From positions 4,526,001 through 4,590,000 of the forward strand of contig NZ_CP055153.1 of the NCBI RefSeq assembly GCF_014075995.1: a stretch of DNA of 64,000 nucleotides, read 5' to 3'. A program made the translations under genes and the position numbers. Under the pieces are notes generated by a model. The model saw only the letters and a list, made by a program, of their open reading frames with translations, was not told the origin of the DNA and ran no database searches. The stretch is from Adhaeribacter radiodurans (GTDB taxonomy: Bacteria > Bacteroidota > Bacteroidia > Cytophagales > Hymenobacteraceae). Positions within the stretch are counted from its first letter, which is position 1; each line of letters starts with the position of its first letter. Below, one piece after another: positions 2,966 to 12,439 of the stretch.

Positions 2966-3684
2966 GCTTCAATCCGGAAAACCACCTCTTTATATTGCTG
3001 GTAATTATCTAAAAAGCGTTTCATTTTTTCGGCAACCTCTTCCGGCGGCCTTAAAGTACCCGAACTTTTATACTTCTTAAACTTTTCAACTTCGCTGAAC
3101 TGGCTTTCATCTACGTCCCGGATGTGGTCTTGCATGGCGGTATCTACCACGCCGGGGGCTAAGGAAAAAACCCGCACATTATTATTTAGCAGCAATTGTT
3201 CTTGTTGCACCGTTAACGAAAGCATATCCAAAGCCGCTTTAGAAGCACAATAAGCCGACCAGCCATCTACGGGCCGTTTACCCGCGCCCGAAGTAATATT
3301 TAATATAATTTTGGGGCATTTTTCAGAATGATAGGCACTTAGAAAGGTATTTATTAGAATAGCCGGTGCCATTACGTTTACATCAAACACGTAAGAAAAA
3401 TTATGCGTGGCCTGACTACCCATATACGCCACCTCCCCTACTACGCCTGCATTATTAACCAGCACAATTTTTTCTGCATCTTTCAAAACTGGAAATACTT
3501 TGTGCAAGTTATTTTCTAAAGCTACAATATCTGATAAATTTAAAGGCTGATGGTGGTAACGCTGATGGGAAATAGAGCAATTACGCGATACTCCGTACAC
3601 GTAGTTATGTTCCTCCTGCAACAAGGCTTCGGCTAAAGCTTTGCCAATGCCTTTACTCGTTCCCGTAATGATGTAGTAGTTCAT
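2953..3684 (-). CDS. SDR family oxidoreductase, YueD/sepiapterin-reductase-like
   Basis: 243 residues from ATG 3684 (MNYYIITGTSKGIGKAL). The N-terminal TGTSKGIG matches the TGxxxGxG NADP(H) loop. NNAG at about residue 87 and YCASKAALDML supply the Asn and the Tyr-x-x-x-Lys catalytic residues, with an upstream SG for the catalytic serine. The overall form (immediate YIITG start, LAPGVVDTAMQ late in the chain) is like Bacillus YueD, described as a benzil reductase, and sepiapterin reductase. Its natural substrate is unknown. A 21-codon upstream extension to 3747 was rejected because it adds residues before the usual first beta strand. Confidence 0.85.
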   Translation of the reverse strand: MNYYIITGTSKGIGKALAEALLQEEHNYVYGVSRNCSISHQRYHHQPLNLSDIVALENNLHKVFPVLKDAEKIVLVNNAGVVGEVAYMGSQATHNFSYVFDVNVMAPAILINTFLSAYHSEKCPKIILNITSGAGKRPVDGWSAYCASKAALDMLSLTVQQEQLLLNNNVRVFSLAPGVVDTAMQDHIRDVDESQFSEVEKFKKYKSSGTLRPPEEVAEKMKRFLDNYQQYKEVVFRIEAIEQ

Positions 3685-3869
3685 AGTTTTCCTGATGATT
3701 GCTCGGATTATATACGCAAACATTCTTATTTCATGCAGATTTAACAAGCTACACGAAGTAATTAGTGGTTTAATAAATTAAAATATTCCGGAAGTAGTTT
3801 AAACAAACTTCAGAATATTTTTACGCACCTTATTATTAAATAACTATAATAGGCTTTAACAAAGCGTTA

Positions 3870-5582
3870 CTATTTTTTCAGGGTAAGCACTTGTTGCTTT
3901 TGATTTAGGAACACCTGAATAATCAGTCCAAAAATTATTACTAAACCGCAGCCAATAGGGTTCCACCACAAATACGCTATTTTAGTGGTTATGGAAATTA
4001 TTATAACGGCCGCTTGCGCTAATAAAGCTCCCCAAAAAGCAGCATTAGATTGAATATATTTCACGTAAAAAGCAACTATAAAAATTCCTAAAATTGGTCC
4101 GTAAAAGTAAGACCCTAAAAGATTAACAGCCTGAATTAAGTTTTCTAACTGAGAAGCCAGCGTCGCAAATAAAACCCCGGTAATCGCCCACCCAATTGTA
4201 AAAATTTTCGACATAAACACATAATGCCGGGAAGAAGCCTCGGGCCGGATGGTGCGTTTATAAAAATCAATAACGGTAGTGGAGCCTAAAGAATTAAGGC
4301 CAGCCGCTGTTGACGACATACCCGCACTAAAAATAACGGCAATTAATAATCCTATAAGTCCGTGGGGCAAGTAGGTAATAATAAAAGTAATGAAAACATA
4401 ATCCGTATCGCGGGTTTCGCCTTTGGGGTCTACTTTCTGCAGCAAACTGCTTACTTGTTTGCGGAGGTCTTTTCCTTGCGTTTCGGTTGTTGTTAGCGCT
4501 TGTTGAACGGCATTTATCTGAGCTTCATCCTCTGTTTTTAGAGCTTCTACTAATTGGTTTACCTGTTGCTGCTTTTGCCGGAAATTACTGGAATACTCGG
4601 TTTCTAATTGCTTTAGAGCCGGAGCATGCTCCGAATCAATTAATTTATTTTTTTCTACCTGATTAAAGAATATGGGCGGTTGATGAAATTGATAAAATAG
4701 AAATACCAGCACTCCAATAAATAAAATCAGGAATTGCATGGGAATCTTTAATAAGCCATTAAACAATACACTTAATCGGCTTTGAGAAATAGATTCCCCG
4801 GATAAATAACGCCCTACCTGCGACTGGTCGGCCCCAAAATAAGACAAGGCCACAAACAAGCCGCCCAACATTCCCGACCAGAAATTATACCGGTCATCCC
4901 AATCAAAATTAAAATCAATCAGATTGAGTTTGCCCATTTTACCTGCCACCTGAATGGCCTGGCCAAAAGAAATATCGGCTGGTAACATATACATTACGGT
5001 AATACCCGCCATTACCATGCCGCATAACATAATGGCCATTTGTTGCTGGTGGGTAACACTTACCGCCCGGGTACCGCCCGAAACCGTATAAATAGTTACT
5101 AACAAGCCCATTACTAAAATAGTAATTTGTAAGCTCCAGCCCAGGATAGTAGACAAAATAATAGAAGGCGCGTAAATGGTTATACCCGTAGATAAGCCCC
5201 GTTGCACCAAAAACAGGAAAGCGGCTAATAAACGACATTTTAAATCAAAGCGGCTCTCCAGGTATTCGTAGGCCGTGTATACTTTTAACCGGTAATAATT
5301 CGGGATTATAGTAGCGGCAATAATGATCATGGCGAGCGGCAAGCCCAGATAAAACTGAATAAACCGCATGCCGTCTTCATAGGCTTGCCCTGGGGTAGAT
5401 AAAAAGGTAATGGCGCTGGCCTGGGTAGCCATAATGGAAAGTCCCATCATCCACCAGCGTTCCTTATTATCTCCTTTCAGGTAACCTTCAATATTTTTAT
5501 CGGCCAGCCGGGTTTTCCAAACTCCGTAAGAAACAATAAAAGCCAGGGTTCCAATGAGTACTACCCAATCTATAGTACTCAT
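3870..5582 (-). CDS. Sodium:solute symporter with a coiled-coil insertion
   Basis: 570 residues with the SSS (SLC5-like) fold: TQASAITFLSTPGQAY and RGLSTGITIYAPSIIL are typical of helices 1-4, and GADQSQVGRYLSG follows the central helices. The protein is an inner-membrane Na+-coupled importer. Residues about 305-393 form a charged, Gln/Glu/Lys-rich insertion (LETEYSSNFRQKQQQVNQLV and onward) of clear heptad character between two membrane segments. A long soluble coiled coil here is not part of minimal SSS carriers such as PutP. The ATG overlaps the stop of a 46-codon membrane-protein gene by four bases (ATGA), so the two are likely translationally coupled. The substrate is unknown; sugars or sialic-acid-like compounds are possible. 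Confidence 0.85.
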   Translation of the reverse strand: MSTIDWVVLIGTLAFIVSYGVWKTRLADKNIEGYLKGDNKERWWMMGLSIMATQASAITFLSTPGQAYEDGMRFIQFYLGLPLAMIIIAATIIPNYYRLKVYTAYEYLESRFDLKCRLLAAFLFLVQRGLSTGITIYAPSIILSTILGWSLQITILVMGLLVTIYTVSGGTRAVSVTHQQQMAIMLCGMVMAGITVMYMLPADISFGQAIQVAGKMGKLNLIDFNFDWDDRYNFWSGMLGGLFVALSYFGADQSQVGRYLSGESISQSRLSVLFNGLLKIPMQFLILFIGVLVFLFYQFHQPPIFFNQVEKNKLIDSEHAPALKQLETEYSSNFRQKQQQVNQLVEALKTEDEAQINAVQQALTTTETQGKDLRKQVSSLLQKVDPKGETRDTDYVFITFIITYLPHGLIGLLIAVIFSAGMSSTAAGLNSLGSTTVIDFYKRTIRPEASSRHYVFMSKIFTIGWAITGVLFATLASQLENLIQAVNLLGSYFYGPILGIFIVAFYVKYIQSNAAFWGALLAQAAVIIISITTKIAYLWWNPIGCGLVIIFGLIIQVFLNQKQQVLTLKK

Positions 5583-5719
5583 TTATAAGCTTGGGTTATA
5601 AGATAAAATACCAGTACCTGCACCGCTAAACTTACTATTACCAGCCAATACATTCTGTTCCAGGATTTAAAAAAAGGCGGTTTTCCAATGTTAGTTTCTT
5701 CGGGTGATGGCTCAAACAT
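5579..5719 (-). CDS. 46-residue single-span membrane protein coupled to symporter
   Basis: An ATG at 5719 opens a 46-codon frame starting MFEPSPEETNIGKPPFFKSW, then NRMYWLVIVSLAVQVLVFYL and ITQAYK. It has a soluble acidic N-terminus, one clear transmembrane helix at about residues 24-42 and a short tail. Its TGA overlaps the ATG of the symporter in an ATGA arrangement. Overlap, direction and membrane character all argue that it is real and may act as a symporter subunit, as small partners such as YhdT do for PanF. It has no recognisable sequence relation to those. No function is claimed. Confidence 0.65.
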   Translation of the reverse strand: MFEPSPEETNIGKPPFFKSWNRMYWLVIVSLAVQVLVFYLITQAYK

Positions 5720-5823
5720 GTATTTTATATTTGGGAAATTTTTGAGTAGTTAATTATGTAAGTACAGTTTAAAAACAGTCTTTTAAGGATGATGTTGTTC
5801 AGGTAACGTCAGAAACCGGATGC

Positions 5824-8319
5824 TTATTTCTTTCCGAGGGCTAGTAAATTACTAAATATGCGGTAAGCCCCAGGTACGCCCGCCGGTAATTGCCGGAACC
5901 AGGCATAACCTGTATAAACATAATAGCCTTTTCCGTATTTAGCTACTAATAAACCCCCATTTTGTGCGGGTTCGCCTGGGTCTTGGGCTGCTAAAATGGC
6001 CTCGTAGTTTTTATCCCAGCTATCCGGAAAATAAAGGCCTCTTTCCTGCACCCAACCTTCAAAATCTTTCGGGGTGATTTTGTTGGGTGAATTTAAAACC
6101 GGATGTTCCGGATGTAGGAATTGTATCGGGGCTGTTTCATCGGTAATGCGGTCGCGCGATATGTTTAGCGGATAAGGTCCGAGTTGCTTGGTTACTAAAC
6201 CATTATTGACGTTATATTGAACGACCAATGTACCCCCGTTTTTAACATAATCCATTAACTGCGCTTGCAAAAATCTTAGTTGATCGTGTGTATTGTACGC
6301 CCGTACTCCCACTACTACAGCATCAAACTTAGCTAAATCTTTTGCATTTATATCTTTGTCGTCGAGCATAGTTATCTGGTAGCCGATTTGTGCCAGACTG
6401 GCTGCTACTTCGTCGCCGGCCCCCATGAGGTAAGCTATTTGTTGCCCTTTTATTTTTAAGTCGAGCTTGGTTGCGCGGGCCGAGGCAATTGGCAGTAAAG
6501 TTTGTGTAGGAATATGCGGATAGTTAATCGTTATTAAACTTTGCTGGTAAACTTTACTATTTACAATAGCCGTTGCTTTTAATTCGCCGTCGCTTTGGTT
6601 TTTGCTGGGGTAAACGGTGAAGGTGTAGCTGGCTTCTTCTCCTTTTTGAGTTAATTGGAAAGGAATACGTTGAGGTTCTACACGCCAGCCCTCCGGAACC
6701 GTTAAGGTAGCATCGCCGGCTACATTAGCCTGCCCTGCTTTTACCCGCACCGTAATGGGCTTGGGTTGATCATCAGCAAAAACAAACACTTTTTCGCGCA
6801 TGCTTACAAAAACCGGCGGAGTAATTTCAAATGGCCGGTAAACTTCGCCTGCCACGGGATCGGTTCGTTTATACACCACCGGAATGGTAAAAGAAAAAGG
6901 CTGCTTATTAATAAGCAAGTCACAAACTACGGAGGCGGCTGGTGCGTTTTCCGGACGACCAATTAAATTTCGATCTTCTACCGTAAACATGCCCGTTGTG
7001 CCAGGTTTTTGAAGCCAATAAGGTTGGGAATAAGGCGTATTTACCGGTACTATTAACTTTCTTTTAATAAGTAAGGACTGGTTGTTCGGCAAGGCCGCCT
7101 GCAAAGTAGAATCCTGATTAACGGGTAAAAAAGATATTTTCTGCCATTGTACCGGAATCTCGGAGCGGTTAATTCCTTCTATTGTTAACTGCATAGCAGT
7201 GCCGGGAGTACTCGTTGGTTCGGCCGCAACTGCTTCCAAATAAAGGCCCAGGCAAGCCTTAATAATAGTATCTAATTCGGTAAGTTTCAGATCGCGGTAA
7301 TACGATCCGGGTAATGCTTGCAAGGCTAACCGCAGGGTTAACAAATCGGGTATGATCGCGGCCGGTTTCGCCGGATTAAAGCCTGTAGTTACTTTAGAGA
7401 GTAATTTACTTACTTTGTCGCTGTTTTTTACTCGTTTCCAAGAAGTATCTACTCCTTCAAATAAATCAGAAGTTGCTTTATCGCCGTTTAAATTTTCGAA
7501 ATATTCTTTAGCTGTGCCCCGGGAACCACTACTACCAAAGCCCTGACTTTTGTGCATACTACGGCTTTCGGCGGCTAGTTCCCCGTAAGATTTTCCGAGT
7601 AGCGCATTATAGCCTCCTACATCCACAATTACTTTACCCGTTTCATCGAATTTTTGCCCTTGACCGAAAAAAAATGTAGACGTATTCCAGAGAATTCGTT
7701 TAGGTTGCCATACTTCTACTGTTTTTAATTGTTCCGGGAACCGGTTTTTATCGCCGGCTGCCGTAAAAGCTTCTACTGCCAAAATAGCCGAAGTAGTATG
7801 ATGCCCGTGCGTGCCGCCGGGTTTAGGTGAAAAGCGGGTTATCAGCACATCAGGTTTAAATTTGCGGATGGTCCAAACCATATCTGCTAGTACCTGCTCT
7901 TTGTCCCAGATGCGCACGGTTTCCTGCCAATCTTTTGAAAAACCAAAATCGTTGGCCCGCGAAAAAAATTGCTTTCCACCGTCTATCCGGCGGGCCTGCA
8001 ATAATTCCTGCGTGCGAATTACGCCTAATTGTTCTCGTATTTCCGGTCCAATTAAGTTTTGTCCGCCGTCGCCCCGGGTTAAAGACAAATAACCGGTATT
8101 TAGTAACTTTTCGTTGGAGAGCCAGCCAATCAACCGGGTATTCTCATCATCGGGATGGGCCGCTACGTAAAGAGCGGTTCCGAGTACATTTAATTTGCTA
8201 ATAGCCCGTTGAATATCGGAGCCAGTATATTGCGCAGGAGCCTGCGCTTGCGCGAGAATTGTAAGTAAATAAAAAAGAAAACCAGTACCAATGTAACGTA
8301 ACGAAAAACGATTTAGCAT
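5824..8319 (-). CDS. Secreted PIG-L family deacetylase, large form
   Basis: 831 residues. Residues 1-26 form a signal peptide (hydrophobic IGTGFLFYLLTIL, then AQAQA). The PIG-L/LmbE domain follows: HPDDE at residues 55-59 supplies the zinc ligands and catalytic Asp, and a second His cluster GGTHGHH lies near residue 172. This family removes N-acetyl groups from GlcNAc-type sugars. A long middle section of beta-sandwich character (about 330-610) precedes a C-terminal Rossmann-like region (about 625-830) with FDAVVVGVRAYNT and NGGTLVVQYNVNNG, which resembles glutamine-amidotransferase-like folds. The protein is therefore a multi-domain periplasmic or surface enzyme, much longer than the 230-residue minimal family. 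The substrate is unknown. Confidence 0.88.
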   Translation of the reverse strand: MLNRFSLRYIGTGFLFYLLTILAQAQAPAQYTGSDIQRAISKLNVLGTALYVAAHPDDENTRLIGWLSNEKLLNTGYLSLTRGDGGQNLIGPEIREQLGVIRTQELLQARRIDGGKQFFSRANDFGFSKDWQETVRIWDKEQVLADMVWTIRKFKPDVLITRFSPKPGGTHGHHTTSAILAVEAFTAAGDKNRFPEQLKTVEVWQPKRILWNTSTFFFGQGQKFDETGKVIVDVGGYNALLGKSYGELAAESRSMHKSQGFGSSGSRGTAKEYFENLNGDKATSDLFEGVDTSWKRVKNSDKVSKLLSKVTTGFNPAKPAAIIPDLLTLRLALQALPGSYYRDLKLTELDTIIKACLGLYLEAVAAEPTSTPGTAMQLTIEGINRSEIPVQWQKISFLPVNQDSTLQAALPNNQSLLIKRKLIVPVNTPYSQPYWLQKPGTTGMFTVEDRNLIGRPENAPAASVVCDLLINKQPFSFTIPVVYKRTDPVAGEVYRPFEITPPVFVSMREKVFVFADDQPKPITVRVKAGQANVAGDATLTVPEGWRVEPQRIPFQLTQKGEEASYTFTVYPSKNQSDGELKATAIVNSKVYQQSLITINYPHIPTQTLLPIASARATKLDLKIKGQQIAYLMGAGDEVAASLAQIGYQITMLDDKDINAKDLAKFDAVVVGVRAYNTHDQLRFLQAQLMDYVKNGGTLVVQYNVNNGLVTKQLGPYPLNISRDRITDETAPIQFLHPEHPVLNSPNKITPKDFEGWVQERGLYFPDSWDKNYEAILAAQDPGEPAQNGGLLVAKYGKGYYVYTGYAWFRQLPAGVPGAYRIFSNLLALGKK

Positions 8320-8470
8320 ATAATAAGTTGAGATAGAGATATCCGGGTTTGTAAAAATGCCAAATTTACAAGATTCTTACACTCTCCTAGAATACCTGTT
8401 AAAATGAGTCGTTAACGACTACTGTAAAACTACCTAAATAAATGAAAAAAGTAGAAGCTCCACAGATTAA

Positions 8471-8497
8471 AAAAGCCTGGAGAATTTCCAGGCTTTT
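8471..8497 (-). terminator. Intrinsic terminator after the DUF3140 gene
   Basis: AAAAGCCTGG and CCAGGCTTTT form a perfect 10-bp stem with a 7-base loop, followed on the minus strand by a T-rich run. It lies 24 bases beyond the stop of the minus-strand DUF3140 gene. Confidence 0.85.
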
Positions 8498-8520
8498 GCT
8501 AAAGTAAATTTTTTATCATG

Positions 8521-8895
8521 TTATTTTGATTTAGTTTCTTTTAATGGATCGTAGCCCCAGCTCATAAGAGTATAGCGCCAAATAGAGTTAGTAATATCAC
8601 CTTCCGGACGTTCTTCTATTTTATTAGGAAGATAAGCAATAACCCGCTCCATGTGGTCGAAATTACTTTTAGTTAGCTCAAATCTTTTTTTACGTAAAAT
8701 CTTTATGGTGCGATCGCCGGCTTTACGGGCCGGAATATCCGTTTCCATTGGCTCCTCGTCAACTAATTTTGACTCTTTGGAATAAAGCCATTTCCCCAGT
8801 TCACCAGATCCCATGTTTATCAACTCACGAAACTCCGTGTAAATCTGATCTTTTGTTTTAACAACCGTTTTAGAAAGTTTTAGTAGATGTAACAT
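8521..8895 (-). CDS. DUF3140 domain-containing protein
   Basis: 124 residues. The chain runs EFRELINMGSGELGKWLYSK, then RTIKILRKKRFELTKSNFDH and the C-terminal GDITNSIWRYTLMSWGYDPL, matching the DUF3140 pattern (EFxxxVNMxxxELxxWL...WRYSLMxWGHDPLK). These are short soluble proteins of unknown biochemical role, often charged and possibly nucleic-acid associated. Family members usually start a few residues before the EFRE motif; here an extra stretch of about 18 residues precedes it, so a later start is possible. The gene is monocistronic and ends at the terminator at 8471-8497. Confidence 0.8.
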   Translation of the reverse strand: MLHLLKLSKTVVKTKDQIYTEFRELINMGSGELGKWLYSKESKLVDEEPMETDIPARKAGDRTIKILRKKRFELTKSNFDHMERVIAYLPNKIEERPEGDITNSIWRYTLMSWGYDPLKETKSK

Positions 8896-10954: not shown

Positions 10955-12439
10955 ATGTCGCCTATCATTATTATCTGCATTATTGCGGCTTATTTTTGCG
11001 TATTAATTCTGATCTCCTTCCTTACCAGTAGCAAGTCTGATAACACCGATTCGTTTTTCCTGGCCAACCGGAAGTCGCCTTGGTTTGTGGTAGCTTTTGG
11101 TATGATTGGCACCTCGTTGTCTGGGGTTACCTTTATATCTATTCCGGGTATGGTAAATAAGGCCGAGTTTTCGTACCTGCAATTTGTGTTTGGGTATTTA
11201 TTAGGCTATCTGGTTATTGCTACCATTTTAATGCCGTTGTACTACCGCTTAAATTTAATTTCTATTTATGCATACCTGGAGCAGCGCTTTGGTTATTGGT
11301 CGTATAAAACCGGTGCGTTTTTCTTTTTGCTGGCGCGTACCATTGGGGCGGCTTTGCGCTTGTACGTAGTGGCAGGAGTGTTGCAATTAGCCGTTTTCGA
11401 TGCGTTAGGAGTTCCTTTTTACATTTCGGTGTTTATTACCATTGCGCTTATTTGGGTGTATACTTTTAGAGGCGGGATGAAAACCATTATCTGGACCGAT
11501 ACTTTTCAAACGCTAGCCATGCTCATCTGCGTGGGAGCCAGTATAGCCTTGATTTCGGATGAACTGAATTTATCGTTTCAGGGATTAGTAAAAACCGTAG
11601 AAGAAAGCAGCTTTTCCAAAGTATTTTTCTGGGATGTAAAAGACAGCCGTTACTTCTTGAAACAATTTTTCTCCGGCGCTTTTATTACCATTGTTATGAC
11701 TGGTCTGGACCAGGACATGATGCAGAAAAATCTGAGCTGTAAAAACCTCGGCGAAGCTCAGAAAAACATGTTTACTTTTAGTATTATCCTGGTTTTAGTA
11801 AATATTTTGTTTTTATCCTTGGGAGCTTTGCTGTATATTTTTGCTCAAGCCAAAGGCATTACCTTACCCACCAAAGGCGACGATGTTTTTCCGTTTTTAG
11901 CGCTTAACTACTTTCCGGCATTTGCGGCTATAGCATTTATTCTGGGTATTGTAGCCATAACTTACGCCAGCGCCGATTCGGCTCTTACGGCGCTTACCAC
12001 TTCGTTTTGCGTCGATTTTCTGGAATTTAAAAACCGGCCCGAAACCGAGCGGCAGAAGCTCAAATTCTACGTGCACATTGGTTTTTCGCTGTTGCTAATG
12101 CTGGTTATTGTCATTTTTAAAATAATTAACGACGAAAGTGTAGTAACTGCGGTATTTAAAATTGCCGGTTACACCTACGGACCTTTGTTGGGTTTATATG
12201 CTTTTGGTTTGTTTATCCGACGGAACTTACAGGATAAATTAGTTCCGGTAGTTTGCTTTTTAGCGCCTATTCTTACTTACATCATCAACATAAATTCTAA
12301 AGAATGGTTTTGGGGCTACGAGTTCGGTTTCGAAATACTAATACTAAATGGCTTTATTACTATTCTAGGCTTACTCAGTATTTCCCGTCCTGCAACGGAG
12401 GTGCTGGAGCCAGCAACTGGCGAAATGGTAAACACTTAA
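10955..12439 (+). CDS. Sodium:solute symporter family protein
   Basis: 494 residues from ATG 10955. It is hydrophobic throughout, with about 13 membrane segments. FGMIGTSLSGVTFISIPGMV lies in helix 1 and FRGGMKTIIWTDTFQT is the classic SSS motif between helices 5 and 6; TGLDQDMMQKNLSCKN and ITYASADSALTALTTSF (the latter containing the helix 8 Ser/Thr cluster for Na+) follow. The carrier imports a small solute with Na+ across the inner membrane. Unlike the symporter at 3870 it lacks the long coiled-coil insertion. The substrate is not deducible. The ABC exporter gene follows after 139 bases and probably has its own promoter. Confidence 0.88.
   Translation: MSPIIIICIIAAYFCVLILISFLTSSKSDNTDSFFLANRKSPWFVVAFGMIGTSLSGVTFISIPGMVNKAEFSYLQFVFGYLLGYLVIATILMPLYYRLNLISIYAYLEQRFGYWSYKTGAFFFLLARTIGAALRLYVVAGVLQLAVFDALGVPFYISVFITIALIWVYTFRGGMKTIIWTDTFQTLAMLICVGASIALISDELNLSFQGLVKTVEESSFSKVFFWDVKDSRYFLKQFFSGAFITIVMTGLDQDMMQKNLSCKNLGEAQKNMFTFSIILVLVNILFLSLGALLYIFAQAKGITLPTKGDDVFPFLALNYFPAFAAIAFILGIVAITYASADSALTALTTSFCVDFLEFKNRPETERQKLKFYVHIGFSLLLMLVIVIFKIINDESVVTAVFKIAGYTYGPLLGLYAFGLFIRRNLQDKLVPVVCFLAPILTYIININSKEWFWGYEFGFEILILNGFITILGLLSISRPATEVLEPATGEMVNT

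Follow-up and report, generated by a model that had tools for sequence, protein, structure and literature searches.

A microprotein gene overlapping a sodium:solute symporter gene in Adhaeribacter radiodurans, and its probable role as an auxiliary subunit

Sodium:solute symporters (SSS) are usually regarded as single polypeptides. In the stretch of Adhaeribacter radiodurans DNA analysed here (64,000 nucleotides in all, termed the window), the start of one SSS gene is overlapped by a very short ORF, which raises the question of whether this ORF is a gene and, if it is, what its product does for the symporter. A preliminary description of the DNA had proposed a 46-residue frame with an ATGA overlap onto the symporter ATG. 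Frame and overlap were both borne out, and the ORF could be assigned to the minus strand, which had not been given; the 46 aa product of this ORF (5719..5579) is MFEPSPEETNIGKPPFFKSWNRMYWLVIVSLAVQVLVFYLITQAYK. The plus-strand reading of 5579-5719 contains 2 stops. The features of the locus are as follows.

3870..5582, minus strand: sodium:solute symporter (SSS), 570 aa; Pfam SSF (PF00474), E 6.6e-41; TIGR00813, 245.8 bits (cut-off 184)
5579..5582, minus strand: ATGA stop/start overlap; microprotein TGA at 5581-5579, symporter ATG at 5582-5580, four bases common
5579..5719, minus strand: microprotein ORF, stop codon counted; predicted single-pass membrane protein of 46 aa with an ATG start
5585..5662, minus strand: microprotein residues 20-45, predicted transmembrane helix with a conserved face (helix 20-44 by AlphaFold2)
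5663..5683, minus strand: microprotein residues 13-19, membrane-proximal motif KPPFFKS, on the predicted cytoplasmic side
5824..8319, minus strand: PIG-L family deacetylase (PF02585), 831 aa, upstream of the microprotein

The downstream gene belongs to the SSS family by both its SSF profile and its fold. The model of an orthologue (L097) matches the sialic acid symporter SiaT (5nva) with a Z score of 41.6 and an rmsd of 2.1 over 464 residues, and also resembles SGLT2; sodium-coupled transport is what this family membership would predict. Residues ~320-385 of the symporter (window 4428-4625, minus strand) form a charged insert of ~60-70 residues that is variable in sequence and length among relatives. 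The same region of the L097 model is folded as two long helices (371-400 and 404-435, in the numbering of the concatenation described below), possibly a periplasmic hairpin. The PIG-L deacetylase is probably periplasmic, as its N-terminus is, by eye, signal-peptide-like.

Matches to the microprotein were found in 29 of 39 genomes (its own included) at E ≤ 0.001, with a single copy in its own genome at this threshold, and it is present in the same-genus genome G002. At 29 of 30 microprotein loci an SSS gene is next, on the same strand and within 1.5 kb, and 25 loci show the four-base overlap. Three genomes that at first gave no match or a weak one (G015, G030 and G031) also carry the pair with a four-base overlap (E 4.5e-14, 2.5e-15 and 1.9e-4). 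With a profile made from the 30 loci, 89 of 395 genomes in the window's phylum could be matched (E ≤ 0.01). The symporter was next at all 29 further strong loci, three of which repeat earlier genomes, and at 18 of 20 additional, mostly weak loci. The other two are L069, which is the detached copy of genome G310 described below, and L085, which has no adjoining symporter and was taken as a false match.

Orthologues of the symporter are present in 143 of the 395 genomes of the window's phylum at E ≤ 1e-60. The symporter is also present in 65 of 193 genomes of the Myxococcus phylum, the phylum labels of genomes being inferred from named loci in the same groups; plasmid records gave no symporter match. 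Upstream regions were examined for all 144 symporter copies, for 80 named loci and for a set of 34 drawn from Myxococcota and a handful of other records; this set shares five loci with the 80. These 258 loci represent 251 distinct proteins (seven are duplicates), including a truncated second copy (L153, 255 aa) and L170 (478 aa). The full copy, L120, is on the same contig, L153 being near one end and L120 near the other.

The microprotein is adjacent upstream in 241 of the 251 distinct orthologous symporters. Besides Bacteroidota and Myxococcota, the 251 include a few other records, and the MAGs that fall outside these phyla (L248, L258, L293 and L310) may be misbinned. The count is supported by HMM matches at E ≤ 0.02 in 235 cases and by position and a hydrophobic stretch alone in six, these being the f51-type loci L191, L192 and L194-L197 (HMM E 0.9-3.3 or no match); the next weakest microproteins counted are those of L201 (E 0.0085) and L187 (0.0028). 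The four-base overlap occurs in 145 of the 241 adjacent pairs, with ATG (111), GTG (32) or TTG (2) as the start codon within it. In 231 the microprotein lies within -16..+4 bases of the symporter start, and the farthest that was counted as adjacent is at -190. Lengths range from 30 to 56 aa, with starts picked by a rule that preferred ATG.

In the Myxococcus phylum, the microprotein was found at all of the 30 best-scoring loci from the 65 symporter-bearing genomes, and an HMM built from 30 sequences of the window's order recognises 34 of 34 Myxococcota-and-others loci at E ≤ 2.3e-9, within a small set of candidate ORFs. A profile HMM made mainly from other loci gave matches just upstream of the symporter at 79 of the 80 named loci (E ≤ 1e-3; of the 80, three or more are from genomes examined before) and one match elsewhere among the 15,616 ORF segments of those loci, a rate far beyond chance. 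The one match elsewhere, in L242, is to an ORF ending near 801, ~1.7 kb upstream of the intact microprotein, and is apparently a partial duplicate. The comparison with relatives that the preliminary description had proposed shows the frame, the helix and the ATGA overlap to be conserved well beyond the window's own family, and on this comparative evidence the microprotein ORF is a real gene.

Judged by substitution patterns, selection on the microprotein is purifying. Fourteen close pairs of attached copies gave pN/pS values of 0.21-0.55, and four detached copies from a single genus differ with dN 0.01-0.06 and dS 0.04-0.41. Stop codons in the frame or an absence of synonymous-site bias, either of which would have spoken against a protein, were not seen in the orthologues.

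AlphaFold2 predicts one long helix for the window microprotein (residues 20-44; mean pLDDT 82.9, and 93-98 from residue 21 on), in agreement with the one clear membrane helix claimed previously. The conserved positions W20, Y24, V27, L31, V35, F38, T42 and Y45 form one face of this helix, W20 and Y24 being nearly invariant in 93 diverse sequences. Conservation over residues 20-45 has a period of 100 degrees per residue (permutation p 0.0008, 93 sequences). The same face is found in the forms with P14/P15 (p 0.0003) and without them (p 0.0008), and the periodicity is retained when W20 and Y24 are left out (residues 25-45, p 0.0070). A single conserved face is as expected of a surface that packs against a protein partner. 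P14 or P15 of the KPPFFKS motif is present in 64 of the 93 diverse members, and the 29 members without either are mostly shorter. K/R residues are in excess N-terminal to the helix in 203 of 240 sequences and C-terminal to it in 2 (35 ties), a charge bias that predicts a cytoplasmic N-terminus and a periplasmic C-terminus.

With a probability of about 0.72, the microprotein is a single-pass auxiliary subunit of the downstream sodium:solute symporter and represents a new family. The results support the accessory subunit suggested in the preliminary description. The microprotein would bind the symporter and affect its transport, and we infer that folding or transport may depend on it.

No Pfam or NCBIfam model covers the microprotein, in scans of the window protein and up to 93 members. 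Weak matches were taken as chance, both those to DUF6724 in 5 of 30 members (best E 0.0057) and others seen in one or two members (best E 0.0011 in Pfam and 0.0032 in NCBIfam). Searched against PDB sequences, the microprotein profile gave weak matches only, the best being a segment of an auxin transporter (E 0.023). A literature search of titles and abstract openings, with most subscription journals outside its coverage, found no description of the microprotein.

Small partners of SSS transporters are nevertheless known. In E. coli, the small ORFs for YhdT (DUF997) and YjcH (DUF485), the latter a membrane protein, likewise run into the starts of SSS genes, those of PanF and ActP respectively, with an overlap of four bases in the case of YjcH. 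They differ from the microprotein in length (80 and 104 aa), and comparison with the single E. coli sequences gave an hhalign probability of 4.8% (E 0.0083 over 20 columns) for YhdT and no usable alignment for YjcH. Neither DUF997 nor DUF485 is among the Pfam matches of the microprotein and the members scanned. The earlier statement that no sequence relation is seen agrees with these results, as no convincing relation to YhdT or YjcH was found. The NCBIfam family NF045580 (symport_access; in full, 'symporter small accessory protein') is likewise very short, at 33 positions. It gave no match in 30 members of the microprotein family (E ≤ 0.5) or in 93 members (E ≤ 0.01), nothing over its cut-off (35 bits) in the microprotein's own genome, the microprotein itself falling outside the family, and no match in 296 genomes of the window's phylum (E ≤ 0.001). 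The 'new example' of the preliminary description stands as far as the family is concerned, but the kind was already known from NF045580, to which no relation is detectable. It follows that the microprotein family is new although its kind is known; its association is both unusually tight and unusually wide.

In architecture the microprotein resembles the human protein MAP17 (PDZK1IP1), likewise a partner of SSS-fold transporters (SGLT2/SGLT1) with one transmembrane helix. According to PMC10803289, the single helix of MAP17 contacts TM13 of SGLT2 and the protein is termed an essential auxiliary subunit, indicating that an SSS transporter can depend on one such helix. A MAP17-type partner should have a single-pass helix with a surface for its partner, and the microprotein has a predicted single-pass helix and a conserved face (p 0.0008), which would be the face meeting the symporter. 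A difference is that alignments of the bacterial symporter model to SGLT2 end at SGLT2 residues 549-550, before TM13, so that an equivalent of TM13 seems, from the model, to be absent from the bacterial symporter.

As an auxiliary subunit, the microprotein could act as follows. The stop/start overlap would couple translation for joint synthesis of both proteins, the helix would insert in the membrane beside the nascent symporter, its conserved face would dock against the transporter, and the docked helix would stabilise the folded or active state of the symporter, as MAP17 does for SGLT2. It is speculation that the foreign helix might fill the flank where SGLT2 has TM13, and a guess that the complex may import the product of the neighbouring PIG-L deacetylase (an amino sugar or acetate). 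A stronger version, put forward tentatively and at somewhat less than even odds, is that the transporters of this whole SSS clade, in Bacteroidota and in Myxococcota, are two-protein machines, in which a separately encoded helix of ~30-55 residues is a constitutive subunit, forming a counterpart of SGLT2-MAP17 of independent origin, and transport fails without the helix. A near-constant one-helix partner that is too small for usual gene calling could account for failures to express SSS symporters heterologously. It would add a subunit to the transporters of 143/395 sampled genomes of the window's phylum and 65/193 of the Myxococcus phylum, and would make MAP17-type control of SGLT transporters open to study in a simple bacterial model.

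Contact between the two proteins was sought by mean-field DCA of 246 microprotein-symporter pairs (Neff 145.8 at 80% identity), in which the top inter-protein couplings were 42-221 (z 7.49) and 41-219 (z 5.88). The maxima in 12 within-clade permutations were z 4.98-8.85, three of the 12 being above the real maximum. After permutation, 42-221 keeps z 0.6-4.96 and 41-219 is several times in the top three, so that the top couplings are partly clade signal and no interface was derived from them. In an AlphaFold2 model of L097, microprotein and symporter were concatenated in one frame with the intervening stop read as glycine, using an alignment of 40 such rows and 69 symporter-only rows; the tether biases the placement of the helix. 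This model has a mean pLDDT of 92.0 and a pTM of 0.90, with pLDDT values of 91-93 for residues 11-30, 70 for residues 31-40 and below 50 in the linker (39-49). Nearly all of its structure matches begin at model residue 43 or beyond; that to 9f6n begins at residue 3.

Ten of the 251 symporters are without an adjacent microprotein. In five cases it is detached (G064, G076, G092, G137 and G310), and in the other five (L107, L189, L190, L193 and L269) it was not found, L269 having been searched in its own contig stretch only. Outside this count, G025 has the symporter and no detected microprotein. With five of 251 symporters lacking a partner that could be found, the microprotein is not strictly obligate, and the partnerless symporters presumably do without it. 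L189, L190 and L193 belong to one genus and represent natural loss of the microprotein: in each, an ATGA overlap joins PIG-L directly to the symporter, and searches of the genomes yielded no microprotein.

That the symporter clade is able to lose the microprotein would suit a membrane protein that regulates the symporter, helps its insertion or protects it, in place of a stable stoichiometric subunit. Small proteins act in this way on other bacterial transporters, MgtU and FeoC being reported, in PMC10710835, to protect transporters from FtsH. However, the constant gene order and the overlap fit conditional control less well than they fit a fixed stoichiometry, and a role as regulator, aid or protector is considered unlikely.

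The detached copies bear on a different alternative, a cis-acting leader or coupling ORF whose translation would merely open or time initiation at the symporter, the peptide being immaterial. The four-base overlap in 145/241 pairs and the spacing of -16..+4 in 231/241 are the layout expected of translational coupling. In G064, G076, G092 and G137, all of one genus (g85), the microprotein is nevertheless intact ~15 kb upstream of the symporter, and the 219-aa gene found ahead of it in an attached relative (G200) is still its upstream neighbour. The symporter of G310 is 108 kb from the microprotein (L312), which overlaps an upstream 172-aa gene by four bases; a homologue of this gene (80% identity) precedes the pair in the same-genus relative G318. 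The G310 overlap is the same coupling layout with another neighbour. In G027 (outside the count), the microprotein overlaps PIG-L by four bases and the symporter, which has no microprotein beside it, lies on a different contig. The three rearrangements belong to three different families and are apparently independent, and survival of the microprotein after relocation of the symporter (~15 kb, 108 kb or to another contig) argues that the product acts in trans and that the ORF is more than a leader. Amino-acid conservation on one helix face and the recognition of all 34 Myxococcota-and-others loci by the window-order profile also count against a leader, as does the Rfam scan of window 3500-8700, where no family scored over its threshold, making this explanation very improbable.

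Even less credible is that the microprotein serves the PIG-L deacetylase as an anchor or partner, with the symporter nearby through the operon alone: PIG-L is upstream at 186 of 246 microprotein loci, and in G027 the microprotein stayed with it, but 60 of the 246 have no PIG-L match in the upstream flank (many flanks are ~0.6-0.9 kb and may overstate this number, although loci with flanks of 2-4 kb are among the 60), so that linkage follows the symporter more than PIG-L, and in G310 and the four g85 genomes neither PIG-L nor the symporter lies within the 1.5 kb flanks. A reading as a toxin peptide was dropped, since the gene accompanies one symporter clade at nearly all loci.

A second SSS-family gene is present in the window (10955-12439, plus strand), ~5 kb away, and the scan showed no small ORF upstream of it. 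Six other SSS genes of the same genome were scanned for small membrane ORFs upstream, and one has such an ORF. This gene (G000:C2:2071742-2072941, locus L031) is preceded by a 104-aa ORF of the DUF485 (YjcH) type, so this genome seems to have SSS partners of two kinds.
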